Below are positions 6,055 to 62,450 of a stretch of 64,000 nucleotides of DNA, piece after piece. This DNA is from Onthophagus taurus (Eukaryota; Arthropoda; Insecta; Coleoptera; Scarabaeidae), in assembly GCF_036711975.1 (NCBI RefSeq), contig NC_091972.1:17241001-17305000 (forward strand), written 5' to 3'. Each line of letters starts with the position of its first letter. Position 1 is the stretch's first letter. A program made the position numbers and the translations under genes. The notes under the pieces were generated by a model, which searched no databases, was not told the origin of the DNA, and saw only the letters and a program-made list of their open reading frames with translations.

Positions 6055-7095
6055 GTTGCAGATAGAGATAAAATAAGTAAATTCTATAAAATCAAATATA
6101 TCCCGACAATAACCAATAAAATTAAAGCTATTTTTAAGAAATATGAATTTCAAGAAATCAAATTAGCACAATATAACAATAATAAATTAACCAATATTTT
6201 GAGTAATATGAAAGACAAAATAGATAAGACGGACAGAATTAATACCATATACCAATTAGAATGTAATAACTGTAATAAGGTGTATATAGGTGAAAGTAAA
6301 CAACAATTACATAATCGTATAAAACAGCATAAATACGATACTAATCAACACAAAATTATTAATAAAACAGCCCTTTGCCAACATGCAATCAAGAATCGTC
6401 ATAAATTTAACTTTGATACGCCTAAAGTGTTGACCACTGAAGGAGATACATTCAACAGAAAGAATATTGAAGCTATCTATATCACCAAAAACATTAACAG
6501 GTCAGTTAATTTTAAATCAGATTCAGGAAATATAGGTAGTTATTATGCAGGCATAATAAACAAATTAGATATATGATTAGTTACTAATTAATTGTAATTT
6601 TAGATATTGGTAAATTTTAAATTTGTAATTTGAATTGAATTGTATTGATTTCCGTAGAACACATTGTTAAAGAAAAACTGGTTCCGTCACGATATTCCTT
6701 CTTATAGTCGCTAAGTCCATACGAACACGTTGAAATGTTTTGTAATTTGAAAAATTTATAAAATGTAAGATCATGGAAATATACACAATTTACCGATAGA
6801 ATTGATAAATTAATCAATAGGGATACTCGACAAAGGTACATTTTTGTTTTTTTTGTTTTCCTTTTTGTTTTTCTTTTTGTTTTCTGTTTTTGTAATAATC
6901 TATGCGTTGTACGTTCAATTTGTTTTAACGATTTCCATAAAGGAGATAATTTCGTCGACGTTGCTTTTTAAATTTCTTTTTTATAGTGATTTCTGATGAT
7001 GAACTATGTAAATAGTTCGAAACGTTAAATGACTTAACAAAAAAATAAATACAAAATCAAGAGGAATTTCATGTATTTGGATTTTAATCATTAAA
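6055..7095 (+). repeat. Penelope pseudo-LTR, upstream copy
   Basis: This is the 3' part of the Penelope-like element, including the end of the ORF (GIY-YIG domain, stop at 6574-6576), the 3' UTR and the hammerhead-like motif. An apparent ORF start further upstream (5968) is in mariner sequence and is a chance fusion. Confidence 0.85.
6985..7034 (+). ncRNA. Hammerhead ribozyme-like motif, copy 1
   Basis: Core CTGATGA at 6993-6999 is followed by a 7 bp stem II (GAACTAT / ATAGTTC, loop GTAA), then GAAAC at 7019-7023 and the cleavage-type triplet GTT at 7024-7026. Stem I forms between AGTGATTT (6985-6992) and AAATGACT (7027-7034) with one G-G mismatch. Stem III is only AC/GT with no loop, as in type I motifs known from Penelope-like elements that act best as dimers. 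One extra U follows the CTGATGA core. Confidence 0.65.
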
Positions 7096-7146
7096 GAATA
7101 ACCAATCCTCTTTAATCAATTAATATATTATAATTACATAATTAAT

Positions 7147-10047
7147 ATGGAATACATAAATATCCATGAATTTAGAAGAAATTGCAAACGAGAAGATGGA
7201 GATGTCAATGTCGGCGATAATTTTAAGAAAATAATTGATTGTTTTAATGTAAGTACCTTTGTTGAGCGCCTTCTTAAACCCACATTCGAAAAAGCCATAA
7301 AAGCTTATTGTAAATTGTTTTATTTGAAAAATTCCCTTAAAATGAATTTAATACCATATCATATTCTTAAAAACTTGAAAAATATAGATAACCTTTTTTA
7401 TAAAGATTATCTAATAAATTACAAACAAAAAATGCAATCTAAACACATAGCCCTTAACATTTTGAAAGATGAAATAAATCAAACTTACTGGTTAATTAAC
7501 AGGATTTTTAGATATATTGATTTTGTTATAACTAGAAATCCCATTAATGAAGGAGACAAATTTAAGGTCAATTTCAGAAGGATCATCTTGAATAAGGCTA
7601 ATCAAAGATACATCAAGTTCACACATAAAATAAGAAGAGACGAGTTACATAACTCAAATCGATTGAAAAATAGAAATCGATTGAAATTACCTTTGTTCCT
7701 AGAAAATGCACATAATAATTCTAACATAAATTTACATACTGATGATTGGTTACAAAATAATTATAACGATTTACACAAGAAAGGTAGAATACTGAATCTT
7801 ACAAAATTACAAATACCCATAAATATACTAAATCTCTTATCTTTGGGTGAAAAATTTTGCTTTACAACACATAACAATAAAAAATCTCTACACAAAGACA
7901 TTTTAAATATGATAATAGACATAGAAAAAGTTTTTATTAACTTGAAGACTTCAGAGAATCACATTAATATAACAAGAAGCAATATAATTAATGAAATTTC
8001 CAATTATCTAGATAGAAATAACAAGAATATGAAAAATAAACAATCATTGACGTTAAATAATAATAGAACATTTTCAATATTTCATAATACAGTGATAAAA
8101 GATATGATTTTCTTGAAAAGATTTTTAACACAACATAAGGACATAGTTATTATAAAGACTGATAAAACAAAACAAATAGCCTTTTTGTATAAATCAGAAT
8201 ATAACGATAAAATGAAAGAGTTACTTAACGATATAGATACTTATAAAACATCTAGATTAGATCCAGGTCCTAATCTAGTTAATCGCATTAATGATTACCT
8301 GAAAATATTAGAAAAGAAAGGATTTATAACAAAGCAACAAAAGCTTAGATTATCACCAAACCATTATGTGACACCTAGGATACATGGATTATTAAAAGCG
8401 CATAAAGATAATAACCCTTTACGTCCAATCATTAATAATATAAATGGACCTACCAATGCGTTATCTATATTTTTAAATAAATCTCTGAATAATTTAAATG
8501 ATGAAAATCATTACGACGTTAAAAATGCCTTTATGCTTAAGAAGCGTCTCGATGAATTGGAGATTGAAAACTATGAAGATATTGACATAGTAAGCTTTGA
8601 TGCGAAGTCCCTTTTTACAAATATTCCGTTAAAACTCATGCTTAAAATCATAGATGAAAATTGGAATAAAATTGAAAACTTTACTTGCATAAAAGACAAA
8701 AAAATATTTTTAGATGGAATAAAGCTTTGTACACATAACAGCTATTTTAAATTTAATAACACTTTTTATAAACAAATATATGGACTTCCTATGGGCTCCA
8801 ACTTAAGCGTAAATCTGAGTGGCATAGTGATGAACTCGTTACTTGACACACAATTAAACGACACTTTCATTAAACCTTTCTTAATTACAAAATACATAGA
8901 TGATTTGCTAATCATTCTACCTAAAAATCAATATAAACAACTTTTGGTCAAATTTAATGAATACAACCCACGCTTACAATTTACAGTCGAAACGTTACAC
9001 AATGAACAAATAGCATATTTGGATATGAATATTACAATAAATAAAGAACACAATAAGATATACACATCTTGGTATAAAAAAGACATCAGTAGCAATAGAA
9101 CTCTTCATTATTTAAGTAATCATCCAAGAACTCAGATAATAAATACTATTAATAATTTAATCCGTCGAGCTATTAATTTAACTGATGATATATACATGAA
9201 AGAAATAAAGACCAAAATATATAATATCCTTTTAGAAAATGCATACCCAAGAACATTAATTAATAATATTTGGTACAATAATTATAATAAAGTCAAACAA
9301 TCAATACCTATAAACACACAACAGAGCAATATTGATAATGTTGAACAAAGATCAAACTTAAATGGAGATCAGATTATTGCAAAAATGAGACCAAGCAAAC
9401 ATAATAATGCAAGTATTGACAACAAGAATAAGGGTGTAACCCAAACTCAAACAAAGATCACAGATTACTTACCACATACGGAAACTTTATATCAGAATGA
9501 TTCGAATGAATTAGACGTACGGAGTGTTGCAGATAGAGATAAAATAAGTAAATTCTATAAAATCAAATATATCCCGACAATAACCAATAAAATTAAAGCT
9601 ATTTTTAAGAAATATGAATTTCAAGAAATCAAATTAGCACAATATAACAATAATAAATTAACCAATATTTTGAGTAATATGAAAGACAAAATAGATAAGA
9701 CGGACAGAATTAATACCATATACCAATTAGAATGTAATAACTGTAATAAGGTGTATATAGGTGAAAGTAAACAACAATTACATAATCGTATAAAACAGCA
9801 TAAATACGATACTAATCAACACAAAATTATTAATAAAACAGCCCTTTGCCAACATGCAATCAAGAATCGTCATAAATTTAACTTTGATACGCCTAAAGTG
9901 TTGACCACTGAAGGAGATACATTCAACAGAAAGAATATTGAAGCTATCTATATCACCAAAAACATTAACAGGTCAGTTAATTTTAAATCAGATTCAGGAA
10001 ATATAGGTAGTTATTATGCAGGCATAATAAACAAATTAGATATATGA
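7147..10047 (+). CDS. Penelope-like reverse transcriptase with GIY-YIG endonuclease
   Basis: A single open frame of 966 residues copies the element RNA into the genome. The RT domain shows the Penelope-type motif A SFDAKSLFTNIP, LPMGSNLSVNLSG and the catalytic KYIDDLLII. A C-terminal GIY-YIG nuclease with CX2C (LECNNCNKVYIGES) and QLHNRIKQH follows, near residues 850-900. The start ATG at 7147 is the first Met of the frame, about 50 bp after the upstream pseudo-LTR. No stop or frameshift is present, so it could be active. Flanking pseudo-LTRs supply repeated ends. Confidence 0.92.
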   Translation: MEYINIHEFRRNCKREDGDVNVGDNFKKIIDCFNVSTFVERLLKPTFEKAIKAYCKLFYLKNSLKMNLIPYHILKNLKNIDNLFYKDYLINYKQKMQSKHIALNILKDEINQTYWLINRIFRYIDFVITRNPINEGDKFKVNFRRIILNKANQRYIKFTHKIRRDELHNSNRLKNRNRLKLPLFLENAHNNSNINLHTDDWLQNNYNDLHKKGRILNLTKLQIPINILNLLSLGEKFCFTTHNNKKSLHKDILNMIIDIEKVFINLKTSENHINITRSNIINEISNYLDRNNKNMKNKQSLTLNNNRTFSIFHNTVIKDMIFLKRFLTQHKDIVIIKTDKTKQIAFLYKSEYNDKMKELLNDIDTYKTSRLDPGPNLVNRINDYLKILEKKGFITKQQKLRLSPNHYVTPRIHGLLKAHKDNNPLRPIINNINGPTNALSIFLNKSLNNLNDENHYDVKNAFMLKKRLDELEIENYEDIDIVSFDAKSLFTNIPLKLMLKIIDENWNKIENFTCIKDKKIFLDGIKLCTHNSYFKFNNTFYKQIYGLPMGSNLSVNLSGIVMNSLLDTQLNDTFIKPFLITKYIDDLLIILPKNQYKQLLVKFNEYNPRLQFTVETLHNEQIAYLDMNITINKEHNKIYTSWYKKDISSNRTLHYLSNHPRTQIINTINNLIRRAINLTDDIYMKEIKTKIYNILLENAYPRTLINNIWYNNYNKVKQSIPINTQQSNIDNVEQRSNLNGDQIIAKMRPSKHNNASIDNKNKGVTQTQTKITDYLPHTETLYQNDSNELDVRSVADRDKISKFYKIKYIPTITNKIKAIFKKYEFQEIKLAQYNNNKLTNILSNMKDKIDKTDRINTIYQLECNNCNKVYIGESKQQLHNRIKQHKYDTNQHKIINKTALCQHAIKNRHKFNFDTPKVLTTEGDTFNRKNIEAIYITKNINRSVNFKSDSGNIGSYYAGIINKLDI

Positions 10048-10567
10048 TTAGTTACTAATTAATTGTAATTTTAGATATTGGTAAATTTTAAATTTGTAAT
10101 TTGAATTGAATTGTATTGATTTCCGTAGAACACATTGTTAAAGAAAAACTGGTTCCGTCACGATATTCCTTCTTATAGTCGCTAAGTCCATACGAACACG
10201 TTGAAATGTTTTGTAATTTGAAAAATTTATAAAATGTAAGATCATGGAAATATACACAATTTACCGATAGAATTGATAAATTAATCAATAGGGATACTCG
10301 ACAAAGGTACATTTTTGTTTTTTTTTGTTTTCCTTTTTGTTTTTCTTTTTGTTTTCTGTTTTTGTAATAATCTATGCGTTGTACGTTCAATTTGTTTTAA
10401 CGATTTCCATAAAGGAGATAATTTCGTCGACGTTGCTTTTTAAATTTCTTTTTTATAGTGATTTCTGATGATGAACTATGTAAATAGTTCGAAACGTTAA
10501 ATGACTTAACAAAAAAATAAATACAAAATCAAGAGGAATTTCATGTATTTGGATTTTAATCATTAAA
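9526..10567 (+). repeat. Penelope pseudo-LTR, downstream copy
   Basis: Near-identical to 6055-7095 (offset 3471 bp, 3472 after a T-run difference near 10311-10325). It ends in an A-run at the junction with hAT sequence. Confidence 0.88.
10457..10506 (+). ncRNA. Hammerhead ribozyme-like motif, copy 2
   Basis: Base-for-base copy of the motif at 6985-7034 in the downstream pseudo-LTR: same CTGATGA core, 7 bp stem II, GAAAC and GTT. Two copies on one transcript could cut out a unit-length RNA of about 3.47 kb. Confidence 0.65.
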
Positions 10568-32628: not shown

Positions 32629-35600
32629 GGGGGAGTGCTATCACCTCTATTATGGTGCCTGGTAGTTGACGACTTGATGAACACCCTAACTAAAAACGGA
32701 TTTAAGATACAAGGGTATGCTGATGACCTGGTAATCACAATCCGAGGTAAATATGATTCAATCATAACTCAGCTAATGCAGAAAGCCCTACTACTCACCA
32801 GTACTTGGTGCAGAAGCAATGGGCTCAGCATCAATCCCAATAAAATCGAAATAGTCCCTTTCACTCGGAGAAGGAAGCTACAAATAAAAGCACCCTCCAT
32901 TGAAAGCAGAACTATTAACCTCAAAACAGAAACTAAATACCTAGGGGTAATACTTGACAGTAAACTAAACTGGAACTCACACTTAGATAAGGTGAGGAAA
33001 AATCATGGCAAACCAGATCTGCCGCGGGCTCCTAGGAAGGAACTGGGGTCTCAAACCACGAATGGCTCATTGGGCCTACGTAGCAATAATCAGACCCATG
33101 GTCGCCTACGCCTCATTGGTTTGGTGGCCAAAAACAAAACATAAGACAGCTCAACAACAGCTGGCACAAATCCAGCGGTTAGCATGTCTTAACATAACGG
33201 GTGCAATGAGATCCTGTCCGACGGCTGCTTTGGAAGCCCTACTCGGTCTCACACTGAGAACCGATGTCTAAATCACCTGATTGAAATTAAAACGGACCTC
33301 ATACCGACGGAATACAATTTCAAGCAACCGTTTAAGGTCATATTTAGTAGCAGGGATGATTGGGCGAAGGGAGGGCCTCAACTAAAAAGAGGAGCCCTAG
33401 CCTGGTACACCGATGCTTCAAAGACAGTAAGATCTGGAGTAGGCATGGGCATCAGTGGACCAAATAGCCACATCAAATTGCCCCTCAGCTCGGTGGCCAA
33501 AAACAAAACATAAGACAGCTCAACAACAGCTGGCACAAATCCAGCGGTTAGCATGTCTTAACATAACGGGTGCAATGAGATCCTGTCCGACGGCTGCTTT
33601 GGAAGCCCTACTCGGTCTCACACCGCTCCACATATATATACAAAAGGAGGCAGCCTTAAGTGCCTTATCACTGAAAACAGTTTCTTCACTCAAGTTGATG
33701 CAGGGTAACCTCAGAGGACACCTCGAGATTCTCAAGGACCCATGTCTAAATCACCTGATTGAAATTAAAACGGACCTCATACCGACGGAATACAATTTCA
33801 ACCAACCGTATAAAGTCATATTTAGTAGCAGGGATGATTGGGCGAAGGGAGGGCCTCAACTAAAAAGAGGAGCCCTAGCCTGGTACACCGATGCTTCCAA
33901 GACAGTAAGATCTGGAGTAGGCATGGGCATCAGTGGACCAAATAGCCACATCAATTGAAGTGAGGAAAAATCATGGCAAACCAGATCTGCCGCGGGCTCC
34001 TAGGAAGGAACTGGGGTCTCAAACCACGAATGGCTCATTGGGCCTACGTAGCAATAATCAGACCCATGGTCGCCTACGCCTCATTGGTTTGGTGGCCAAA
34101 AACAAAACATAAGACAGCTCAACAACAGCTGGCACAAATCCAGCGGTTAGCATGTCTTAACATAACGGGTGCAATGAGATCCTGTCCGACGGCTGCTTTG
34201 GAAGCCCTACTCGGTCTCACACTGCTCCACATATATATACAAAAGGAGGCAGCCTTAAGTGCCTTATCACTGAAAACAGTTTCTTCACTCAAGTTGATGC
34301 AGGGTAACCTCAGAGGACACCTCGAGATCCTCAAGGACCCATGTCTAAATCACCTGATTGAAATTAAAACGGACCTCATACCGACGGAATACAATTTCAA
34401 GCAACCGTTTAAGGTCATATTTAGTAGCAGGGATGATTGGGCGAAGGGAGGGCCTCAACTAAAAAGAGGAGCCCTAGCCTGGTACACCGATGCTTCAAAG
34501 ACAGTAAGATCTGGAGTAGGCATGGGCATCAGTGGACCAAATAGCCACATCAAATTGCCCCTCAGCTCGGTGGCCAAAAACAAAACATAAGACAGCTCAA
34601 CAACAGCTGGCACAAATCCAGCGGTTAGCATGTCTTAACATAACGGGTGCAATGAGATCCTGTCCGACGGCTGCTTTGGAAGCCCTACTCGGTCTCACAC
34701 CGCTCCACATATATATACAAAAGGAGGCAGCCTTAAGTGCCTTATCACTGAAAACAGTTTCTTCACTCAAGTTGATGCAGGGTAACCTCAGAGGACACCT
34801 CGAGATTCTCAAGGACCCATGTCTAAATCACCTGATTGAAATTAAAACGGACCTCATACCGACGGAATACAATTTCAACCAACCGTATAAAGTCATATTT
34901 AGTAGCAGGGATGATTGGGCGAAGGGAGGGCCTCAACTAAAAAGAGGCGCCCTAGCCTGGTACACCGATGCTTCAAAGACAGTAAGATCTGGAGTAGGCA
35001 TGGGCATCAGTGGACCAAATAGCCACATCAAATTGCTCCTCCGTTCCGACTTAACAATTTTCCAAGCAGAAGTTCTTGCTATAAACTTCTGCACCGCTTT
35101 GAACCTACAGAAAGGACAAAAAGGTGCATCCATAAACATTTTCACAGACAGTCGGGCCGCCTTAAAGGCAATTCAGGCCTACACGTGTGGCTCCGCACTG
35201 ATCAGAGAGTGTACCAACAACCTGAGAGAACTCGCTAGGGGCAATGATGTTACCCTATGGTGGGTTCCAGGTCACAGCAACATTGAGGGCAATGAGGGCC
35301 GACAAGCTGGCCAAAGAGGCAGCAAACACGCCCTTCATTGGACCTCAACCTGGATGTGGACTACAAAAAAGCCACCTAAAACAAACAATCAACAACTGGG
35401 AGGCTTCAAAGATAGCCTTACGCTGGAAAGAACTTCCAGGTCACAGACAAGCGAAGAGTATGATAACTCCGTCGCAAAACAAAACCAAAGAGGTTTTATG
35501 CCTCAGCAAAGGGGATCTAAGAACGCTCTCAGGCTACCTGTCCGGCCATGTGCCCCTAAAATACCACCTCTTCCACATTGGACAAGCTGAGGATCAAACT

Positions 35601-37045: not shown

Positions 37046-38555
37046 CTACCTCCGTTCCAAAATAAGTGTCCGATTTGAGATTTTTTATAGGATTATTGAA
37101 TAAACAAAAAAAAAGTTGTAATTATGAATTTATTTATGTAGAACACATATTCATTGGTCATAGTAGGTCGGGTATGTTTTTGACAGTAGAAATTTAAACC
37201 AGTGTCAATTACTAAATCTTGGTAAAAAAAAAATTAATTTTGTATATTCTCCGCCAAGTATAAAAATTGAGCAGCGACAAGGTGTCTTACAATATCTGCT
37301 GAAAACATAAGCAATGCAAAGTTGAAACATGGTGCAATTAAGCAGTGCAGCACTAAATTCTGGAAGGAAACGTAAAGACAGAGAAGGTATAAAAAAGAAA
37401 ATCTCGGAAGTTTCCATAGCACAAAGATCAACTATCCGCAGTCTTTGTAACAATATTAACGTGTCATTAGGAACAGTGCACAGAATTTTGAAGGAAGGAG
37501 TCATAAAGAGAGTTTCAAGTACATTGAAACCTGTTTTGACCGATGACAATAAGAAGCGTCGATTAGAATTTGCACTTTGTATGTTACAAGAACCTAGCCT
37601 ATATCTTCAAGAAATGTTAGAGCTTGTTCATATTGATGAAAAATGGTTTTACATAACCAAAACTAAGACAAACTGCTACTTTCTTCCCGAAGAAGAAACA
37701 CCTCATCGAACATGTAAGAGTAAAAGATTCTTAACAAAAGTCATGTTTCTAGCTGCAATGGCTCGTCCAAGATATAATTACAACAAAAAGTCTGAATTTA
37801 ATGGTAAAATAGGCTTATGGCGTATTGTAACTCAAAAACCAGCAAAACAAAATTCTAAAAATCGTGTACGTGGGACATTAGTGACAACATGTGTTGAAGT
37901 TACTCGTCAAATTTATGTGAACATGATTACCAAAAAAGTTATTCCAGCTATAAAAGAAATGTGGCCAAAGGGTAGCAAAAAGATGCCCATCAAAATTCAA
38001 CAAGATAATGCCCAACCACATTGTAGTATAGATGATGGTGAAGTAATTCGTGCCGGAACAGCTGATGGATGGAATATTAGTTTGATTTATCAGCCACCAA
38101 ACAGCCCTGACTTTAATGTTCTTGATTTAGGCTTTTTTAATGCAATTCAGTCTATACAATATAAAAGCTCGATGCATAATATAGATGAATTAATTGCTGC
38201 TGTTTTGAAGGTATGGGATGATACACCTGGATATAAATTAGGCAATGTTTTTATGACACTGCAGAAATGTATGGAGTCCTCCATGCTTCATAAAACAGGT
38301 AACAATTGCCAAATCCCTCAAATAGAAAAAGAAAAATTACGGTCTACTGGACAATTACAAAGAAATGTAATTTGTTCAAAAGAATAATAATAATAAATTA
38401 TACTATAAAAAATTTGGTTCAATTATAATTTAATACAGTTCAGTTAATAAATTAAAATATGGTAGTACTTATATTTCACTTTTTTTTAAAAGTTGACACT
38501 TATTTTGGAACAAATAAAATATACAAATCGGACACTTATTTTGGAACGGATGTAG
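37046..38555 (+). mobile_element. Mariner element with Stowaway-like termini
   Basis: The ends read CTACCTCCGTTCCAAAATAA at 37046 and, reversed, CTACATCCGTTCCAAAATAA at 38555, each flanked by TA (37044-37045 and 38556-38557). After the first end, GTGTCCGATTT continues on both sides. Ends of the form CTCCCTCCGTTCC are the hallmark of plant Stowaway MITEs and plant mariners. One transposase ORF lies inside. Confidence 0.85.
37329..38387 (+). CDS. Mariner transposase of plant-like DD39D type
   Basis: The frame gives 352 residues. Catalytic blocks are VHIDEKWFYITKTK (first Asp), PIKIQQDNAQPHC (second Asp) and PPNSPDFNVLDLGFFNAIQS (third Asp). From the second Asp there are 34 residues to the SPD Asp and 39 to the VLD Asp. 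The sequence around them (QQDNA, QPPNSPD, DLGFF.AIQ) is that of plant mariners, usually classed DD39D. A HTH-like region (SLGTVHRILKEG) lies near the N-terminus. Upstream, KLKHGAIKQ is in another frame, so the true N-terminus is probably broken by a frameshift and the enzyme may be inactive. ATG 37329 is the first Met of the surviving frame. Confidence 0.85.
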   Translation: MVQLSSAALNSGRKRKDREGIKKKISEVSIAQRSTIRSLCNNINVSLGTVHRILKEGVIKRVSSTLKPVLTDDNKKRRLEFALCMLQEPSLYLQEMLELVHIDEKWFYITKTKTNCYFLPEEETPHRTCKSKRFLTKVMFLAAMARPRYNYNKKSEFNGKIGLWRIVTQKPAKQNSKNRVRGTLVTTCVEVTRQIYVNMITKKVIPAIKEMWPKGSKKMPIKIQQDNAQPHCSIDDGEVIRAGTADGWNISLIYQPPNSPDFNVLDLGFFNAIQSIQYKSSMHNIDELIAAVLKVWDDTPGYKLGNVFMTLQKCMESSMLHKTGNNCQIPQIEKEKLRSTGQLQRNVICSKE

Positions 38556-38569
38556 TATTTTTTTGCAAT

Positions 38570-39207
38570 GATCGATGAAAAAGTATGCAGCACATTAACA
38601 GACTCCTTCTACATCTACTTGTCTGGTATGCATTGCCAAACCAAATAAAATAAATAATTTGGAGATGGTAACAGCAAGACTATCTATGGTCTTGCATGTA
38701 ACCACCGCACAAGTACTCTGCTTTTCACTCACTTCACTACACTAACTCGAAGGGTTTAGTCCTCTTCAATCTTCTTGTGAAATTGGTGGTGTCGAGAAGC
38801 TAGAGGCACTGAGGTTCATGCCATCCTACGATTTTGGGATTATTTGATTAATTGTCTCTATTTCAAGATCCTCACAGTTGCGGAAGTACCAAGGTGCATC
38901 GACCATGTCTCTCAGTTTTGTTTTGTAGTCGTTGAATGATTTGAATATTACTTTTACTAGCACAGATCCAAAGTTGTAGGCCGTATAACCGTATTGGCTT
39001 CAGTACTTACTTCTAAAGGAGCAATTTATTGTGGATGGGTAACTTGGAGTTCCTTTCAAGCAACCAGTACGTTTTTCTATATTTTAGATTAAGCTCTTCT
39101 TTTTTTCTTTTTCACGTGGACTTTCCAGCGTAGCCATGCGTCTAAGGTACTTCGCCGAGTTAGCATGTGGGATCTGGGCATCAGTTACTCTGATGGGTAT
39201 ATGCTGT
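38570..39207 (-). pseudogene. Jockey-like LINE, part downstream of the gypsy insertion
   Basis: The minus strand reads LVKVIFKSFNDYKTKLRD and VDAPWYFRNCEDLEIETIN, the RT C-terminal region of a jockey-like LINE. It is about 80-90 percent like the second copy at 61005-61400 by eye. The gypsy element interrupts it at 39207 and it resumes at 49190, with CTGT duplicated on both sides. Confidence 0.75.
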
Positions 39208-39997
39208 TGTCACAAACTAGCTCTCGAGAAGTTCTCGTTTCCCGTAGTGGGTTTCCTAGCTAGGTCCACGGAGCGGCTCGCGTACCCAACTGTCCACGCA
39301 CTACCGTTTTCTTGATAGCTAGCAATGACTGAGTTAGGGTTTGGCACACTGCATTCGTTCACTTGAAAGCGAACGGCAGTAATTTGAAATTAAGAATAAA
39401 AATAGATTGAAAGAAAACGAAATTTCACTGCTAAAGAATAAGTTTGCTTTATTTTTGAACAAGAACGTATTATATTATATATATAAAAAAAAACAACTGA
39501 CAAAGATTTTAAAAAGTAAAAATTACATGACATAAGCTATTCAACAACATCATTACGGAATTTGCCGAGGTGGTTAGCAGGTTCAATGAGAAATCGGAAG
39601 TTTAAGATTTTAATAACGCTTACCCGTTTGTTAAAGTAAAATATTCATCGAAGAAAGAGAATCCAATTCAACGAATTTTATAACTAAATTGCTATAAGTT
39701 CAAATCGCACGACTCGAATTTAAAAACACAACAAAAACTTTAATTTCCCGGTTTCGCCCGATGCTTTTCTGTTCCAATCCCGTAACCGACTCCCCGATTT
39801 TTTCTTCATTTCTCCCCTGCTCCATCTACTCTAACTGCCACCTCGGCACATTCCTGCCAGAACCGCCTACGTAGTATTTAGTCTGGACCCTCGGTTCTCA
39901 AGACGCAACTTCGTAATTAAATTACAAAGTTCTGCCTGTATTGCGTTTTATTATTTTTTTTTAATCGCTTTCGAATCCCAAAATGCGGTTTGTTACA
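39208..39997 (-). repeat. Gypsy 3' LTR
   Basis: Matches 48400-49189 in length (790 bp) and, by eye, in sequence. On the minus strand it follows the purine tract directly. Confidence 0.95.
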
Positions 39998-40014
39998 TCC
40001 CTCCCACCTTTTTA
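39998..40014 (-). other. Polypurine tract of the gypsy element
   Basis: On the minus strand AAAAAGGTGGGAGGGA abuts the 3' LTR, the expected primer for plus-strand DNA synthesis. Confidence 0.75.
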
Positions 40015-40689: not shown

Positions 40690-41590
40690 TTTCCGCATCC
40701 AACTTGGAGAGGTCGGTACCTCAGAATATATATTTGAAACCATCACTTCAGGGCTTGTGGAATTGGTTGCCTCAGGAACTATGTTAGTCGGAGTTTCTGG
40801 CGAAGCAAGATCCTCACCCCTTCTCTGATTAAAAAGCCACATCGTAAAATTTTTCCACAACTGGCCAAGATGACGATACCTCATCCCAAGGTTTTAAATA
40901 TTGCGTAGCCATTCAATATCACGCTAGCGAGTCCCTTTACGAAACACAATAAAACAATCACTCGTGCGATAACGTGCTCTTAGCAAATTTACGCAACTCT
41001 TCCGCATGAAATAGTTGAATCCAGTCCTTATTTTTCTGTCTTCTTTCCCTGGATTTTTCTAATAATGACATTGTTTATAGCTGATCGTTCCAAGCCGACT
41101 TGTACTAGTTCTTGTGCTTGTCTGACGTCTTCGTTGTTATAAATTTCGGCCACTCCCAAATTCATAATGGTACTAAATTTTGACTTCTGAATCTTCATAA
41201 GGTAGAAGTCCATCAGGTGGTGTCTGGGATACCTGCAGTGGAGTTAAGGCTACCCAGGGCTTTTCAATCTGATACATTGGTGAACTAATGAGGTTGCGGT
41301 CAACCTGGTCTGCATAGTCCAGGAGTACATGTGTCATTGGCGACTCAAAATAGGACCGGTTATCCGTATCAGAGACAGGAAGTTCATGGTAACAAGTATA
41401 CGTTTTTCTTACTTGCACTCTCTTTGGTACACATTTCAATATGTACAGGACTTCTCCGATTGCACGGCCGACATAACTCGTTTCATTCTTAGCGAGCAAA
41501 CTAACGGTGGTTGGTGATAACGGGGCCAATAATAAGCGATTTTTATGTGTTTCTATATACGATTTGTCGGTGAATCCGGGCTCTTTGGAC
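40690..41590 (-). pseudogene. Env-like remnant of the gypsy element
   Basis: Downstream of pol, the minus strand keeps blocks resembling the C-terminal half of insect errantivirus-type envelope proteins: SYVGRAIGEVLYILKCVP, CYHELPVSDTDNRSYF, a conserved Leu/Tyr-rich region (about 41530-41170), then in another frame DWIQLFHAEELRKFAKS. The N-terminal half is absent, an in-frame stop lies just upstream, and frames change at least once, so it cannot make a full envelope protein. Family assignment is by recalled motif only. Confidence 0.45.
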
Positions 41591-42020: not shown

Positions 42021-45000
42021 TTACCTATACCTAGCTGGAAGTTTTATGGCTCTCCTCTCCCGTCGTATTGCCAACGGTTCTTCAAGGGGTTCATCTATTA
42101 ATTCTGGTGCCTTAATAATAATGCTATCGTCCTCACGTTCTCTTTCTATTTCTGAAGGGTTTTCAGAAGGTTCAGCTATTGACTCCAACAACTCCTTACT
42201 CATACATTCATTTTTCCCTTCCAGATTTTCTGCTGTACTAGTATCATTACTCTCTTCTAGAATTAATCGTCTCGGACATATATTAATTTTTGGGCAGGGG
42301 GTCTCATTTAGTAAATCTGTTACTCCTGTATTTTTTCGAAAAGTCAGATCCGGTGTATGTAAACTGATTATCGGCATATGTGGCTCAACATACCGGTCTT
42401 CGTTTATTTCTTCGAGGTGTACATTCGAATCTAGGCTTTTACACTCTTTCGCAGTTGATTCTTTATTAGTTCGAAATGATTTCAATCTATTACTATGTAC
42501 AATAGATTTTAGCTTTCCGTTTACTGATGTAATTTCGTAGTTCTCTGGTCCTTTAATTTTTGTAATCATGTACGGTCCTATCCAAGGTTGGGCTAATTTT
42601 CTATTTAGACCTGGTTTTATAGATGTGTCTTTTAAGAGTACCAACTCTCCTACGTAAAAATCTCTGTGCTTACTTCTTTTATTATAATACTCAGCCTGTC
42701 TTCGAGCGGCAAGCTGCAAACTTTCAAAAACCGTCTCATACACGTGGTTCATTCGCGCTGCCAATTCCGTCACATAGTTCTCATCACAGTCGTACTTACA
42801 CCTGGAGGGTCGGAGAAAAACATCCACTGGTAATTCCATTTCCCTGCCGTATAACAAAAAGTGGGGGGTATAGCCCGTACTGCTATGCACCGTTGATCTG
42901 TACGCCAGAAGAACATAGGGTAACCATTCATCCCAGGTTCTTTGGTCCTTTTTAACATAGTGAGATAGTACGTCTTTGATCACCCGATGACTTCTCTCGA
43001 TAAGACCATTGCACTCGGGATGATACGGTGTGGTTTGTATTTTGTCGATATTTAATAGCTTACAAATTTCCTTCATGAGTGACGACACAAAATTTGTACC
43101 CTGATCGGTGAGCAACTGCAGAGGAGTACCGTGGCGACTTACTATTTGCGTTACAAAAGCTCGAGCCACAGTATCAGCCTTCTGATCAGGTAAGGCTACT
43201 GCCTCTAAATATTTGGTGAAATAGTCCTGGAACGTAAGTATATACTTGTTTCCTTTGTATGTTGTTGGTAACGGACCCACTATGTCCATTGAACTTCTTT
43301 CGAATGGCTTTCGAACAGTTGTAAATTTTTGCAAGGGTGCTCTAGACATATGGGGGGAAGTTTTACGTCTATTGCATGACTCACAATTCGAACAATACTT
43401 TTTAACATCACGTGTCATAGACGGCCAAAATACCCTATCCTTAAGTAAAGCTAATGTTTTCGCTTGACCGCCATGACCTGCAAATGGTAAATCGTGGTAA
43501 TCATGCAAAGCCTTCTGCACAAATGATTTCGGCAACACTAGTACTTCTTTTCCTAACTCATCAGTTTTAAATAAGAGCTTATCATTATCTATGAAATAAC
43601 TATCCCTAAGATCTTTGTTTGATGAAAGAGAATCCCGTATTTCAATGCAAAACTCGTCCTTATCTTGTTCTTTCAAAATAACATTTTTATCCCAAACTGG
43701 CGTTGCTATATTTTCCTGTATTTTACATAGTGTTTTGTTTTTAACAAAAGGTAATTTATATACCATTATCATGGTATTCGTTCCCTCAAAACATTCTCTT
43801 AATTCTTCTTTAACTAGGCTCCACTTTAGTTTATCGAGACCACATCCTATTCTGGGTATTGCCAAATATCTCTCCCCAGATTTATTCATTTCCTCCCGTA
43901 ACGTTTCTAGACACTGTCTCAACATGTGGTACGTTGGTTTATGGTAGTATTCGTCCTTTGTAATTAAATGGTATATTTTTCGTTTCTCCGCTATTTGCGG
44001 TACTATGTCACCAACTCCTTTCTCCTCGGATCTTAATTTTTCAACGGAGCCAAATCGCTTTTTAAATTCCTTTGCAATACCAGCTCCCATCGCAAAATCA
44101 GCCGAAACGCAATGAGCTAATACCCAACCTTGGGGAGCATCAAACAAATTTCCCTCTACTTCATTAATGCATAACTTATCTTTCTCATCCTTTCGGATTA
44201 GGGAAACTATACTGTTTCGGCTGAGAGCATCCACGTTTCCATGCTTTCGGCCCGGTCTGTGGATAATCTCGAAGTCATACTCCATTAGCATTAAAGCCCA
44301 TCGTGCTAGTCTCGAGCTCGGGTCTTTGATATTCATCAACCATTTCAATGGTCTGTGGTCTGTTATGATAGTGAAACGGCGTCCATATAAGTAGCACCGA
44401 AATTGCTTTATCCCAAATATGACAGCAAGACACTCTTTTTCGGTAGTCGAATAGTTTAGCTCAGCCTTCTTTAGTCCTCTACTAGCGAAAGCCACAGGGC
44501 GTTCATTTCCCTCTCTCACCTGGCTAAGTATAGCACCTAATCCTGTGTTACTCGCGTCTGTAGCCAAGATGAAAGGCTCATTGAAATCTGGGAAAATTAA
44601 TACCGATTCTGATGTTATCGCGGCCTTTAAGCTTTCCACCGCTTCCAATTGCTCTTTTTCGAATTTAAACGCGACATCTTTGCGCGTTAACTTCGTAATT
44701 GGGGCCGCTAATCGGGTAAAGTCCGGTATAAATTTCCTATACCATCCCACCAGCCCTAAAAATTCTCTACAATTCCTAACGTTTTTTGGAACGGGGAAAT
44801 TCTGTATCGAGTTGATTTTTCCCGGATCCGGTTGAACGCCTTGGGCAGATATTATGTGACCAAGATAAGACACCTTTGGGACCGCGATCTGGCTTTTCTC
44901 CATCTTAAGTTTTAGTCCTGCATCTCGGATTCTATCAAAAATAGTTTGTAGTTTGTTCAAATGATCGTCGACACCCGTTCCATTGAAAATTATTATATCA

Positions 45001-46967
45001 TCTAAATAGACGAGGCAATGAGTACCTAACAATCCCGAAAATGTAAAATTCATGAAGCGCTGAAACGTCGCGGGGGCATTTACTAGCCCAAACATCATTC
45101 GGTTGCTCTCATAGTGCCCGAACGGCGTGGAGAAAGCTGTTTTTTCTCGGTCATTCTTCTCCACTTCTATTTGATGGTACGCCGACGCTACATCAAACAC
45201 GCTAAACAGATTAGTCTTCCCTAACACATCTACTGTCTCTTGCAGATTCGGCAACGGGTACACATCTTTCTTAGTTACCGCGTTGAGTCCTCGGTAATCT
45301 ATACATACTCGGGGTTTTATCGATCCGTCTGACATCTGCCGGTTAACGATTACAACCGGCGCCGACCAGGGTGAATGAGATGGTTTAATAATATTTTTCT
45401 TTAACAGCTTATCTATTTCTTCCTGTAAGAACTCTCGTTGATGAACTGGTACTCTATATGGACGTTTACTAATTGGTGGTACATTCTCAGTAATAATTTG
45501 ATGTTTGACCTTGTGAGTTTTCGTAAACCTTTCGTCACCATTGTCGAAAATATCTCGATAATCCAATAACAATTTTTCAACTTTCTCTTTGTCTGTTTCT
45601 GATAGATGAGCCAATGAGATCGATTCCAAAAATGTTGATGTCTCTCCGTCTTCTCTTATCATTGCAACCATCTCGCTTTTTACTTCTGGATTAACCTTCT
45701 TATTCGGTATTATACAACTATACGCTCTAGCTATCTCTGTATGCTTTGGGATCGTTATTGATTCTTCTCCTATGTTTGCAACCAATACTCGTGGTTTTTC
45801 CCCTCTTGGAACAGCACATCTTCCTATTAATATATTTGGATGAAAGGGCGTTTTACTTGATTCAATTACAATGTCGTTCTTTTTATTATTATTACGCACG
45901 TCAACCGCTAACACCTTCTCTGTAAACGGTTCAACGATATCTTCTTCAACGGTGATAACAGGATTACATTGACAGTTTTTATCATTGTTTATTTCGTTTT
46001 CTTTCGTATCTTTCATATTAGTTTCATCCTTAATTTCTTCTTCATTTTCGCATTCCCTTAACTCATTATTTTCTGCAACAATTCGTGACTTCTGCGTCAC
46101 TAATCCACTACTTCCGCTGGGGTCTTCTTGAATTTCGCCTTCTCGGCTCTCCCTATGACTTTCTTTAGTCTTTAATTTCTCTATTTTTTTTTCTTCTTCT
46201 TCTATTCTTTTATCGTGACAATCCCTGTCCACATTTACATCGATCATTCGGCGATACCCGGTTTCATAGTCATCGTTGCTATCTGAACTTAACTCCCCAA
46301 ACTCTTCTACCAAAACATTTACCTCGAGTGGCATAAACCTCGTTCGTTGATTCGTCTCCTCGGTTACGTACTTTTCTTCGACTTCACGTTTCTTTATTAG
46401 ATACTCCGTCCTCGTTACTTGCGGTTCGATTAAATTTATTTCCGTTGATAATTCTGATACATAATCATTCGCGAGTTCCAAATTATCTACCTGACCTACA
46501 CCCAAACCTGATGTGGTGGATTCTCTACATTCAAGGGAATCTGTAGACACAATACGCTGCGACCCCAAATTGACGTTCATGATACTTGAAAATCTAACAT
46601 CAATACCTCCTACATTTAGGCTACCTTTACTAAAATCAATAATTACATTGTGAAATTCCATAAAATCGCGTCCCAATACTCCATCTGTGGTTAAAGGCAA
46701 ATTGTCCAAACATACATAGCACGAGAAATCTCCTAAATTCGATTCATTCCCCAATGAAAAATTTAACTCAGTCGTACCTAGCATGTCAATTCCGTGTCCC
46801 GTTATTCCCGAAATACTAAAATCTCCTGACATAGGTTTAATTGCTTCCGAAATTACACAAGAATGTTTAATTATCGTAACAGGAGAACCGGTGTCTACTA
46901 ACATCGTTATTGGTTTGTTTTTATTGAACAATTTAATAGAAAAAGGTGTTTCAAAAATGAGTCTCAT
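42021..46967 (-). CDS. pol: Gypsy Pol polyprotein with inserted macro domain
   Basis: The open frame gives 1648 residues from the first ATG; the frame is open further upstream into gag, so the real product is a Gag-Pol fusion made by -1 frameshifting. Order: retropepsin (MLVDTGSP, Asp25), a charged linker (about 190-345), RT (YPLPNLQETVD, catalytic VYLDD near 652), RNase H (LATDASNTGLG near 803; tether ends GNVDALSR), macro domain (about 936-1072), integrase with zinc finger (H-H-C-C, ending YCSNCESC) and DDE core (MDIVGPL near 1228, LLTDQGTNF near 1287, NGLIERSHR near 1322), then an acidic C-terminal tail. No stop or frameshift interrupts it. The macro domain is not part of the standard gypsy set. 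Confidence 0.96.
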   Translation of the reverse strand: MRLIFETPFSIKLFNKNKPITMLVDTGSPVTIIKHSCVISEAIKPMSGDFSISGITGHGIDMLGTTELNFSLGNESNLGDFSCYVCLDNLPLTTDGVLGRDFMEFHNVIIDFSKGSLNVGGIDVRFSSIMNVNLGSQRIVSTDSLECRESTTSGLGVGQVDNLELANDYVSELSTEINLIEPQVTRTEYLIKKREVEEKYVTEETNQRTRFMPLEVNVLVEEFGELSSDSNDDYETGYRRMIDVNVDRDCHDKRIEEEEKKIEKLKTKESHRESREGEIQEDPSGSSGLVTQKSRIVAENNELRECENEEEIKDETNMKDTKENEINNDKNCQCNPVITVEEDIVEPFTEKVLAVDVRNNNKKNDIVIESSKTPFHPNILIGRCAVPRGEKPRVLVANIGEESITIPKHTEIARAYSCIIPNKKVNPEVKSEMVAMIREDGETSTFLESISLAHLSETDKEKVEKLLLDYRDIFDNGDERFTKTHKVKHQIITENVPPISKRPYRVPVHQREFLQEEIDKLLKKNIIKPSHSPWSAPVVIVNRQMSDGSIKPRVCIDYRGLNAVTKKDVYPLPNLQETVDVLGKTNLFSVFDVASAYHQIEVEKNDREKTAFSTPFGHYESNRMMFGLVNAPATFQRFMNFTFSGLLGTHCLVYLDDIIIFNGTGVDDHLNKLQTIFDRIRDAGLKLKMEKSQIAVPKVSYLGHIISAQGVQPDPGKINSIQNFPVPKNVRNCREFLGLVGWYRKFIPDFTRLAAPITKLTRKDVAFKFEKEQLEAVESLKAAITSESVLIFPDFNEPFILATDASNTGLGAILSQVREGNERPVAFASRGLKKAELNYSTTEKECLAVIFGIKQFRCYLYGRRFTIITDHRPLKWLMNIKDPSSRLARWALMLMEYDFEIIHRPGRKHGNVDALSRNSIVSLIRKDEKDKLCINEVEGNLFDAPQGWVLAHCVSADFAMGAGIAKEFKKRFGSVEKLRSEEKGVGDIVPQIAEKRKIYHLITKDEYYHKPTYHMLRQCLETLREEMNKSGERYLAIPRIGCGLDKLKWSLVKEELRECFEGTNTMIMVYKLPFVKNKTLCKIQENIATPVWDKNVILKEQDKDEFCIEIRDSLSSNKDLRDSYFIDNDKLLFKTDELGKEVLVLPKSFVQKALHDYHDLPFAGHGGQAKTLALLKDRVFWPSMTRDVKKYCSNCESCNRRKTSPHMSRAPLQKFTTVRKPFERSSMDIVGPLPTTYKGNKYILTFQDYFTKYLEAVALPDQKADTVARAFVTQIVSRHGTPLQLLTDQGTNFVSSLMKEICKLLNIDKIQTTPYHPECNGLIERSHRVIKDVLSHYVKKDQRTWDEWLPYVLLAYRSTVHSSTGYTPHFLLYGREMELPVDVFLRPSRCKYDCDENYVTELAARMNHVYETVFESLQLAARRQAEYYNKRSKHRDFYVGELVLLKDTSIKPGLNRKLAQPWIGPYMITKIKGPENYEITSVNGKLKSIVHSNRLKSFRTNKESTAKECKSLDSNVHLEEINEDRYVEPHMPIISLHTPDLTFRKNTGVTDLLNETPCPKINICPRRLILEESNDTSTAENLEGKNECMSKELLESIAEPSENPSEIEREREDDSIIIKAPELIDEPLEEPLAIRRERRAIKLPARYR
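43750..44160 (-). other. TARG1/OARD1-type macro domain inside Pol
   Basis: Residues about 936-1072 of Pol read as a macro domain of the TARG1 (OARD1) class, enzymes that remove ADP-ribose from proteins. Matching blocks are GWVLAHCVSADFAMGAGIA, KIYHLITKDEYYHKPTY and AIPRIGCGLDKLKW. The two TARG1 catalytic residues correspond to Lys1004 (LITK) and Asp1045 (CGLD); their spacing of 41 equals that of human Lys84 and Asp125. The domain begins about 20 residues after the RNase H tether and ends before the integrase zinc finger. Confidence 0.9.
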
Positions 46968-47035
46968 ATGCGGTATAATCTTATTTACAGTTGGGTCATA
47001 ATTTTCGACAGGCTTTATTGACTTATCGTAACCCT

Positions 47036-48151
47036 TTAATTCGAGTCTCCTGCGGTTCGGGTATTCACCGCAGGACGATATGCGTTTAAAGAGTTCGTCT
47101 CATTGTACCTGTTATTTGCGGGAATTTGCGGTGATCTAGTAACCCGCGGGGGCGATTGTCGGCCCGTATAATTGTTATCGTTTACATTACGTCGCGGTTC
47201 GTTTTGATAATCTCGCTGTTGGTAATAAAAATTTCTTCGGTCGCGGTTGTTTACCTTATCGGATGAATGACCCTCTTGAAAACTAACACGGCGTGGGAGG
47301 TCACGCCTTTGGTCGTAGTTCGGTTGCATTTTATTTGAAGGTAACCTACATTGTTTACTAATATGACCGGGTTTTCCGCAATTATAACAATTAAACACGG
47401 TTGTCTGTGCATTACAAAATTTCGCAAAATGACCTGACTTTCCGCATCTGTAACATAATCTAGTAGTCGTATCCACCGCTCCTATATTAATTCGATTTGG
47501 ACGATTTCGGTTTGTAGCCTGATTTAATTCTTCAAATGATGCGATCTCTTCCGCTTTATCTAGAGTTAAATCCGTTTCACGCATAAGTAACGTTCCTACC
47601 ATTTGACTTAATTCACGTTTCATTCCCACTTTAAATTGACTTAGTGCTAATTCATTAATTTTTATAATAACTCCCGGTAATTCTGCTGCTGTTACTTTCG
47701 CTTTGTCCTCCTCGATAATCTCATTCGCGATAGACTTTATACTGGTTACGTAAGACGACACGGATTCATCGTGTTTTTGGAACGCGCGCATTAATTTCCC
47801 TAGTGCTTCTCCCGGTAATTTTCGCGGGGTAAACTTTTTAATTAATTTTTCCCGTAATTCTACATATGTGACCTGATTACTCTGTAAGTTTGTTTCCGCC
47901 TTATAAAATTTATAAGCCTCTCCACTCAATCGATACCTAACAATATGAAGCATTTGTGTTTCATTCCAATTATCTAAGATCGCACGTTGCTCTAACCTTT
48001 CAAAATACAGTTTAACATTTTCTCGACCTGAAAAAGATTCTACCGTTCCTGCTAACATTCCTAAAGAAATCGGTGTAACCATCATTGGTGTTGTTAGAAT
48101 AGAACCTTCAGCTTCGCCCGGAATTTCTGCTACGTTATCATCGGCGTTCAT
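47036..48151 (-). CDS. gag: Gypsy Gag protein
   Basis: A 371-residue structural protein that would form the particle. The N-terminal two thirds carry a retrotransposon gag region (FSGRENVKLYFERLEQRA, YKFYKAETNL, LREKLIKKF). Two CCHC zinc knuckles follow, CYRCGKSGHFAKFC and CYNCGKPGHISKQC (about residues 232-270), for RNA binding. The C-terminus is Arg/Asn-rich. The stop at 47038-47036 lies about 48 nt past the slippery site. The frame is intact. Confidence 0.93.
   Translation of the reverse strand: MNADDNVAEIPGEAEGSILTTPMMVTPISLGMLAGTVESFSGRENVKLYFERLEQRAILDNWNETQMLHIVRYRLSGEAYKFYKAETNLQSNQVTYVELREKLIKKFTPRKLPGEALGKLMRAFQKHDESVSSYVTSIKSIANEIIEEDKAKVTAAELPGVIIKINELALSQFKVGMKRELSQMVGTLLMRETDLTLDKAEEIASFEELNQATNRNRPNRINIGAVDTTTRLCYRCGKSGHFAKFCNAQTTVFNCYNCGKPGHISKQCRLPSNKMQPNYDQRRDLPRRVSFQEGHSSDKVNNRDRRNFYYQQRDYQNEPRRNVNDNNYTGRQSPPRVTRSPQIPANNRYNETNSLNAYRPAVNTRTAGDSN
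47048..47090 (-). promoter_or_regulatory. -1 ribosomal frameshift signal, gag-pol
   Basis: On the minus strand the gag codons TCT TTA AAC contain the heptamer T TTA AAC (47090-47084), a classic -1 slippery site. After an 8 nt spacer comes a perfect 9 bp stem, TCCTGCGGT / ACCGCAGGA (47075-47067 with 47056-47048), with a 10 nt loop. The loop ACCC could pair with GGGT at 47034-47031 to form a pseudoknot. Pol is in the -1 frame relative to gag and is open across this point. Confidence 0.85.
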
Positions 48152-48379
48152 AGTGATTAAGATTTTTATTATTTTTAATGATAGTCACAAAATATTCACC
48201 TACTAACCCCTGCACGACAAAATTTATTACTTTATACGTACAAACAAAAGAATGATTGACAAAACATTAAAGAAAATTAACTCGAAATCTTTAAATTTTG
48301 AAACAGGAAATAGTAACAAAAACAAAATAAAAAAATAACAATTAGATTTTATTTCTACTTTTACATCAAATTGTGCCAA

Positions 48380-48399: not shown

Positions 48400-49189
48400 T
48401 GTCACAAACTAGCTCTCGAGAAGTTCTCGTTTCCCGTAGTGGGTTTCCTAGCTAGGTCCACGGAGCGGCTCGCGTACCCAACTGTCCACGCACTACCGTT
48501 TTCTTGATAGCTAGCAATGACTGAGTTAGGGTTTGGCACACTGCATTCGTTCACTTGAAAGCGAACGGCAGTAATTTGAAATTAAGAATAAAAATAGATT
48601 GAAAGAAAACGAAATTTCACTGCTAAAGAATAAGTTTGCTTTATTTTTGAACAAGAACGTATTATATTATATATATAAAAAAAAACAACTGACAAAGATT
48701 TTAAAAAGTAAAAATTACATGACATAAGCTATTCAACAACATCATTACGGAATTTGCCGAGGTGGTTAGCAGGTTCAATGAGAAATCGGAAGTTTAAGAT
48801 TTTAATAACGCTTACCCGTTTGTTAAAGTAAAATATTCATCGAAGAAAGAGAATCCAATTCAACGAATTTTATAACTAAATTGCTATAAGTTCAAATCGC
48901 ACGACTCGAATTTAAAAACACAACAAAAACTTTAATTTCCCGGTTTCGCCCGATGCTTTTCTGTTCCAATCCCGTAACCGACTCCCCGATTTTTTCTTCA
49001 TTTCTCCCCTGCTCCATCTACTCTAACTGCCACCTCGGCACATTCCTGCCAGAACCGCCTACGTAGTATTTAGTCTGGACCCTCGGTTCTCAAGACGCAA
49101 CTTCGTAATTAAATTACAAAGTTCTGCCTGTATTGCGTTTTATTATTTTTTTTTAATCGCTTTCGAATCCCAAAATGCGGTTTGTTACA
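48400..49189 (-). repeat. Gypsy 5' LTR
   Basis: The upstream LTR in the minus-strand sense, adjacent to the primer-binding-like site. Contains the U3/R/U5 regions; I could not place the transcription start. Confidence 0.95.
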
Positions 49190-49590
49190 CTGTTTTAATT
49201 TATTGGTGAAGTTTACATGTACAGACTTGATACGCTAAGTTCTGGTCTAAGTATTTATTTTGTCCATAGAGGATTATTTTTCAGCAGCAATTTATGAAGT
49301 AAGCCTTCGTGCCCGACTTTATCAAAAGGCTGGGCTACATCTAGGAATATTGCAGAGCAGATTTCGTTTCCTTCTAAAGACTTTTCAATAATATTTATAA
49401 TTCTGCGTATCTGGTCTATTGTAGAGTGGCTTTCCCAGAACCCGAACTGGTGCGAAGGGATTAGGTTCTTTTCTTCTATTATCGGTTCTAATCTTTTAAA
49501 AAATAACTTAAAATCATTTCAAAATTACTGGTAACAAGGAAATAAGCTTGTATGACGACGTTTCCTCAGGTAGTTTTCCTGGAGCATGAT
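49190..49590 (-). pseudogene. Jockey-like LINE, part upstream of the gypsy insertion
   Basis: Continues the LINE of 38570-39207. The plus strand from CTGTTTTAATTTATTGGTGAAG closely follows 61409-62000 of the second copy, covering the central RT region in antisense (ISAIFLDVAQPFDKVG, with DVAQPFDK as RT block A). It decays near 49590. Confidence 0.7.
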
Positions 49591-61004: not shown

Positions 61005-62450
61005 TTATGATTGAACTACACTAATTTTATATAGTTTAGTCCTCTCTAATCTTCTTGTCAAATTGGTGTTGTCGAGGAGTTGGAATGCTTCAGAATTTAC
61101 GTGTTGGAGAAGTCGTTGTTCATGACATCCTGCGATTTTGGGAATTATTTGAATAAGTATCTCTATTTCATGGTGCTTGTGGAGATCACAGCTGCGGAAG
61201 TACCAAGGTGCATCGACCATATGTCACAGTGCTTTGTTTTGTAGTCGTTGAATGATTTGAATATCACTTTTACTAGCGCAGCCCCAAAGATGTATAACCA
61301 TACTGGCTTTAGTACTTGCTTATAAAGAAGCAGTTTATTGTGGATGGGTAACTTGGAGTTCGTTCCAAGCAATCAGTAAATTTTTAGTTAGCATGTTTTT
61401 TTAGTTATGCTGTTTTCATTTATTGGTGAAGTCTACTTGTACAGACTTGATACGCCAAGTTCTGGTCCAAGTATTTATTTTGTCCATAGAGGATTGCAAT
61501 TTTTCAGCAGCTTCTTCATGATTTTTTCATATTACCATGATAGCGGTATCATCTGCAAACGTTGTCAACTGCAATGGTGTTCTGTTCAAGATAAGGAATA
61601 TCACTTAGATAACAAGTAGAATACTGGGCCGAAGAAACTACCTTATGGCTCTCCAGCCTAGATCTTTCTTAAGTTAGAATAGGAATTCTCTTGCTTTATG
61701 CTAAAATATCTTCCTGTAAGATATGACTTTATCAAAAGCCTGACCTACATCTAGGAATATTGCAGAGCAGACTTCCTTTCCATCTAAAGATTTTTTAATA
61801 ATTTTTGTAATCCTGTGTATCTGATCTATTATAGAGTGGCTTTCTCTGATCCCGAATTGGTGCGAAAGGATTAGGTTCTTTTCCTCTCTTATCGGTTTTA
61901 ATCTTTTAGGAAATAGTTTTTGAAATAATTTCGAAATTACTGGCATCAAGAAAATAGGCCTGTATGACAACACTTCCTCAGATGACTTTCCTATTTTAGG
62001 AGTCATTATTACTTCCGCTATTTTTCACATCATAGGAACATATCTTAATCTAAATGTAGTGTTAATATGATAAGTCACTTTTACTATTGCTTTCTTTGGG
62101 AGCTGTTTAAGAATTTCTCTTGTGATTTGATCGAATCCAGGTGCTTTTTTTGGATTAATATTCGTTTTGACTTTTTTCCAAAACTTCTTTTGAGGTGGTG
62201 AGTAAAATCTCGCCATCCTCTTGTCTTGGTTCATTCCAGTCTTGTGGTACTTTGGTTGGAAGATCAATTCCAGATGTTCTGCAAATCTGGTTGCTTTTTA
62301 TAGGTCATTCCGAGCCCAACTTCCATCAACCTTTCTGATTGGCGGGTTTTGGAGGGTAGGTCGTTTTAGACTTTTGGTGGCTTTCCACAAAGAGTAGTCA
62401 GTTTTAGCCAGTTTAGTCAGTCAAGCCAATCCATAATGAGATTTAAACTC
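61005..62450 (-). pseudogene. Jockey-like LINE, second copy (RT region)
   Basis: Minus-strand blocks in order: NPKKAPGFDQITREILKQL, LSYRPIFLMPVISKLFQKL, HQFGIRESHSIIDQIHRI, SAIFLDVGQAFDKV (RT block A), and further down LLGTNSKLPIHNKLLLYKQ and VDAPWYFRSCDLHKHHE. Frames change and the catalytic YADD is missing or decayed. Same family as the LINE hit by the gypsy element (38570-39207 with 49190-49590). Confidence 0.75.

Follow-up and report, generated by a model that had tools for sequence, protein, structure and literature searches.

Why should the Pol polyprotein of a retrotransposon contain what appears to be an ADP-ribose hydrolase? This question is raised by a 64,000-nucleotide stretch of the genome of the scarab beetle Onthophagus taurus (assembly GCF_036711975.1, contig NC_091972.1, positions 17,241,001 to 17,305,000; hereafter the window), in which a sequence-only reading placed a TARG1-type macro domain within the Pol frame of a gypsy element, between RNase H and integrase. 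The placement proved correct. Pol occupies 42021–47099 on the minus strand and comprises 1692 amino acids from stop to stop; its first Met codon (46965–46967) is residue 45, which gives the unbroken frame of 1648 codons that had been described. The Pfam domains follow one another in the order protease (RVP), reverse transcriptase (RT; RVT_1), RNase H (RT_RNaseH; 44277–44588), integrase zinc-binding domain (Integrase_H2C2; 43356–43532) and integrase core (rve; 43017–43310), and the macro domain, at 43752–44171, lies in frame between RNase H and integrase. The motif GNVDALSR was located at 44217–44240, HLITKDEYYHKPTY at 43929–43970 and PRIGCGLDKLKW at 43821–43856, all on the minus strand. The limits first proposed for the domain, 43750–44160, were right to about 12 bases, and the strand, which had not been given, is minus.

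Both the Macro profile and the search against OARD1 gave significant matches. The Pfam Macro score was 25.9 bits (E 1e-5; cut-off 22 bits), and human TARG1 matched residues 16–155 of the segment encoded at 43698–44216 (minus strand), i.e. 43752–44171, with an E-value of 1.5e-34. Among solved macrodomains, five TARG1 sequences took the lead (E 1.5e-34 to 3e-34), the next best match having an E-value of 1.3e-7. When the fold was modelled, the list of structural matches was headed by six TARG1 entries and, by this predicted structure, the window domain has a macro fold. While human TARG1 (OARD1, C6orf130; ALC1-like class) is a small free-standing protein, the window domain is embedded in the 1692-residue Pol.

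The catalytic pair attributed to the domain was likewise confirmed in the Pol sequence. Lys1004 (codon 43956–43958) and Asp1045 (codon 43833–43835), counted from the first Met, are 41 residues apart and correspond to Lys84 and Asp125 of human TARG1. Passages of a TARG1 review give Glu125 as the catalytic residue (PMC7050489), whereas the human TARG1 chain, in its sequence and in the alignment, has Asp at position 125, not Glu. The pair was kept in 25 of the 27 Pol rows that had not been set apart as decayed, a class drawn by overall similarity but not independent of the pocket; in 23 of these rows it was recognized by the 41-residue pattern and in two (L025 and P0020) by alignment, while in P0021 an Arg replaces the catalytic Lys. 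Furthermore, an alignment of 21 intact-looking rows (18 Pol domains, human TARG1, the host gene and a DNA ligase III) contained 21 columns conserved at ≥90%, including H32, C33, S35, D37, G43, I44, A45, K84, G123 and D125. Judged by these residues, the window domain is probably an active ADP-ribosylhydrolase.

The element that carries this domain belongs to a family that is multi-copy and has recently spread. The window genome contains 74 matches to the domain, 22 of which are 99–100% identical over all 173 residues and are distributed over seven contigs (C1, C3, C6, C7, C10, C11 and C15). The whole 1692-residue frame is open in 16 of these 22; of the others, one is interrupted by a stop within the domain, and another copy is truncated. 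To survey the arrangement of the domain, we took a piece of the surrounding sequence for 40 of these matches. RNase H, macro domain and integrase were consecutive on one strand in 25 of the 40 loci, and two of the three stood in order in five more. In two other loci, the macro domain lies ∼1 kb upstream of RNase H, and in the remaining eight it was alone in its piece. Four of these eight (L020–L023) join the family with the macro domain upstream of RNase H; in L020, L021 and L023 it is followed by RVT_1 in one frame, and the RNase H–integrase gap of this family, worked out from the data, is only ∼57 residues. Of the other four, L035 belongs to the same before-RT family by sequence, L032 is the OARD1-like gene of the host itself, and L019 and L030 are broken and stayed without assignment. 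On the sequence evidence, a second Pol slot for the macro domain, before RT, exists. At position B, a protease upstream of the macro domain was indicated by a weak Pfam match in L034 (E 0.01, below the cut-off) and by a 30% BLAST match in L094 and L095. As a separate observation, the L019 segment (C8:9706408–9706835; TARG1-type, with one stop) adjoins a Mutator-like transposase frame.

A public search with the Pol macro region returned 21 proteins, and 16 of them have the order RNase H, macro domain, integrase. In P0006, the macro domain precedes the protease. P0017 is a gypsy-type Pol in which the macro domain follows integrase and is itself followed by a Tpt1/KptA RNA 2′-phosphotransferase domain (PF01885, E 3.1e-6), and P0010, a DNA ligase III of 1073 residues with a PARP-type zinc finger, has a TARG1-type macro domain located between its ligase and BRCT domains. 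A scan of IMG/VR with the RNase H–macro–integrase piece found no relative. Two further proteins of ∼1670 residues, P0014 and P0018, each contain a segment of TARG1 type near residue 1290, and neither matched Pfam at E 0.001. Because the order recurs in other Pol families and in these 16 public proteins, the macro domain is not one unique capture. Of the earlier proposal that the element had captured a host enzyme, the TARG1-type identity stands, while the idea of one unusual capture does not.

A host OARD1-like gene, sought with a hemichordate OARD1 as the query, was found at C1:43968377–43969.5k (L032); its macro domain is split by a 50-bp GT..AG intron and preceded by a long N-terminal extension, and C3:27700400–27702400 holds a decayed duplicate of it at 97% identity (L092). 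A look for telomere repeats turned up two overlapping internal TTAGG matches and no TCAGG match. Macro trees were calculated from 59 rows, with long branches, and from 45 rows after dropping 14 long or near-duplicate ones. The window domain was not specially close to the host gene in these trees, and a recent capture from the present host is not supported, since this intron-bearing gene is not its closest relative, the deep forks being weakly supported. The tree of RNase H plus integrase (33 rows, with L025 filling 47% of the columns) placed the window family, L013, L027, P0001, P0002 and the before-RT L020 in one group (98/96), and a second group (100/99) took in 17 rows, some with intact and some with decayed domains; three insert-less elements fell outside both groups, beside P0006. 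On this tree, at least four changes between intact and decayed domains (30 labelled rows) and at least four changes of the domain's place are needed. We also compared substitutions by the NG86 method. Between the window element and L011, the nonsynonymous rate (dN) was 0.21 in the macro domain versus 0.10 in integrase, with synonymous change saturated, and between L012 and L013 the synonymous rate (dS) was 1.56 and dN was 0.31. By these sequence comparisons, the macro domain is under purifying selection that is looser than in its Pol neighbours.

Profile comparison showed that several gypsy families without an obvious insert have a decayed macro domain in the RNase H–integrase gap, and a model made from decayed sequences alone had TARG1 as its best PDB matches. 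Among 20 RNase H–integrase intervals compared with the macro profile, of which those of L071 and L075 were untrimmed at the integrase end, seven matched (L061–L066 and L075; groups D2 and D3). When the comparison was restricted to five named OARD1 sequences, the score held at 99.0 for group D1 and at 96.2 for the before-RT group. The term 'decayed' covers different states, as L044 and L046 keep K and D at the catalytic columns and have lost the rest of the pocket. The fold has been kept in other lineages while the pocket decayed, so that a role in structure or binding is probable as well.

The reading that best accommodates these data is that the domain is an old, selected module of Pol. As related domains, intact or decayed, are present in many other elements, it appears to be an ancient component of the gypsy machinery that has been overlooked. 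We consider it fairly probable that a long-established TARG1-type module, probably an active hydrolase, acts at the integration complex. The integration role taken by itself is put forward tentatively, its chances being slightly short of even. PARP1-type enzymes respond to nicks and breaks, lesions that integration makes. Conceivably, the domain would accompany RT and integrase within the particle or intasome and would strip ADP-ribose that host poly(ADP-ribose) polymerases (PARPs) have attached to Glu/Asp side chains in proteins of the integration complex or of chromatin; alternatively, it could strip ADP-ribose from the terminal phosphates of either the cDNA or the nicked target. A hydrolase beside integrase could in this way clear marks from the complex or from DNA ends, and their removal would let integration and gap repair finish. 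With NAD, Tpt1 enzymes are able to attach ADP-ribose to nucleic-acid ends, and the fusions in P0010 and P0017, with ligase III and Tpt1/KptA as partners, point the same way. TARG1 is described in review passages as freeing ADP-ribose from protein Glu/Asp and from nucleic-acid phosphate ends and as interacting with PARP1 (PMC7050489). A wider version, in which a TARG1-type hydrolase was already present in Pol of the ancestor of a large animal Ty3/gypsy group, we regard as evenly balanced between right and wrong. The RNase H–integrase gap of many ordinary families would then be a decayed remnant, and window-type families would have the enzyme in use to this day, which would connect ADP-ribose signalling with integration.

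A number of findings weigh against an old module that works at integration. Several families have decayed macro versions only and, in the before-RT lineage, the domain precedes RT with nothing between RNase H and integrase, so that neither catalysis nor the RNase H–integrase position is needed by all gypsy elements. Nine of the 20 intervals (L067–L072, L074, L076 and L079; groups D4 and D5, from which L070 was left out as a repeat of L068) had no match to the macro profile, and four (L073, L077, L078 and L080) had no insert. Compared with 114 standalone proteins, which are mostly without names and could include a few element fragments, D3 reached only 57.8, L062 alone 23.4, and L063 or L065 alone 0.5; restriction to the five named OARD1 sequences lowered D2 to 69.5 and D3 to 30.1. 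In L027, the catalytic Asp is replaced by Asn. The best macro trees split the Pol domains, with weakly supported deep forks on 150 columns, and the rate of change of the domain is roughly double that of RNase H or integrase, which would also fit a role in conflict.

The split in the macro trees, where the Pol domains are not one clade, is what would be expected if cellular TARG1 genes had been captured on several separate occasions and not acquired once, long ago. This history would also account for the existence of two main slots and of others at the N and C termini, and a class-B domain does stand beside the host gene in one tree (weak support, 85/57). Against it, the approximately unbiased (AU) test retained one clade both for 20 Pol domains (p 0.068) and for the 18 domains of the RNase H–integrase slot (p 0.111), neither being rejected, the forks concerned are those with weak support, and the 33-row tree groups the macro-bearing elements apart from the three without the domain. 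We therefore hold several captures to be a real possibility, albeit somewhat improbable. The rapid change of the domain, its shifts of place in Pol between lineages, the macro domains of several arthropod RNA viruses among its BFVD matches and the retention of the catalytic pair in most rows would all suit a counter-defence enzyme, which would strip the ADP-ribose of host antiviral PARPs from element RNA, Gag or cytoplasmic host factors, with Pol serving for delivery only. Passages of PMC7050489 suggest that RNA of transposon or viral origin may be marked by ADP-ribosylation, which would fit such a role. However, the commonest place of the domain is beside integrase, and its ligase III- and Tpt1-fused relatives point to nucleic-acid ends; we consider this explanation unlikely. 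Rather improbable, too, is that the domain is a structural spacer or an ADP-ribose reader between RT/RNase H and integrase, with a dispensable hydrolytic activity that is being lost, since the Lys/Asp pair is kept in the window element and in 25 of the 27 rows, and the pocket residues H32 to A45 listed above are kept in most of the 21 aligned rows. Finally, an artefactual join in the assembly, or a host gene inserted by chance into a single copy, has next to no probability: both were ruled out by the 22 near-identical copies on seven contigs, 16 of them with the whole Pol frame open, and the same order is found in unrelated public contigs.

Apart from its TARG1-type domain, the element has the features of Ty3/gypsy (Metaviridae), sharing long terminal repeats (LTRs), a 4-bp target duplication, a zinc-knuckle Gag and the protease–RT–RNase H–integrase order, and differing by the extra macro domain. 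All of its parts lie on the minus strand. The 790-bp 5′ LTR (48400–49189) and the 3′ LTR (39208–39997; TGTCACA...GTTACA) are 100% identical and, from its sequence, the element is a young insertion. The target-site duplication CTGT was read from the flanks at 39204–39207 and 49190–49193, and a purine tract, AAAAAGGTGGGAGGGA, was recognized by eye next to the 3′ LTR at 39998–40013. Gag (47036–48184; 382 residues from stop to stop, two zinc knuckles at 47345–47458) overlaps Pol by 64 bases, Pol being in the −1 frame according to the coordinates. Within Pol, the protease is encoded at 46656–46922, RT at 44850–45317 and the integrase C-terminal domain (Integrase_p58_C) at 42480–42578. An env remnant, open for 138 residues, is of the Monjiviricetes-type fusion glycoprotein kind (41176–41589; Monjiviricetes_fusion, E 8.9e-27). 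As all 22 near-identical matches share this 138-residue frame, the interruption of env probably predates the spread of the family; related macro-bearing families of the same genome have open frames of up to 659 residues at this position. The element is nested in a copy of a repeat (38736–39076 and 49181–49569), another copy of which lies at 61015–61981. Elsewhere in the window, a 1042-bp direct repeat (6055–7095 and 9526–10567; 99.9% identical) overlaps a 981-residue open frame without a Pfam match (7102–10047), a repeat array with a 478-bp period (32992–35041; 98% match) overlaps a frame with an RNase H domain (34520–35590), and a Tc/mariner-type transposase frame (HTH_Tnp_Tc3_2) is located at 37326–38387.

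Among the papers listed in searches of an open-access library, which covers few subscription papers, we found no report of a macro domain in a gypsy Pol. The available passages of two LTR-element reviews (PMC5408687 and PMC5408684) describe Pol as protease, RT, RNase H and integrase, and the word macro is absent from them. Macro-domain open reading frames are known in endogenous retroviruses of fish (Basta et al. 2009), according to a sentence in PMC4977317. As far as such excerpts describe them, these teleost viruses are, like the window element, retroelements with a macro domain, but they are epsilon-like and have additional open reading frames, and the domain is not inside a gypsy Pol. RNA viruses, too, have a macrodomain inside a replication polyprotein (nsP3 of alphaviruses, nsp3 of coronaviruses), and according to abstracts it is thought to counter host ADP-ribosylation. 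The domain described here adds an enzyme and a previously unrecognized fold to the Pol of a group that is among the best studied of eukaryotic mobile elements, and its decayed versions provide a natural comparison of families that keep the pocket with families that lose it. Should the domain prove active, retroelement integration would be connected with the responses of host PARPs at DNA ends, and a small soluble domain would be available on which to test this.
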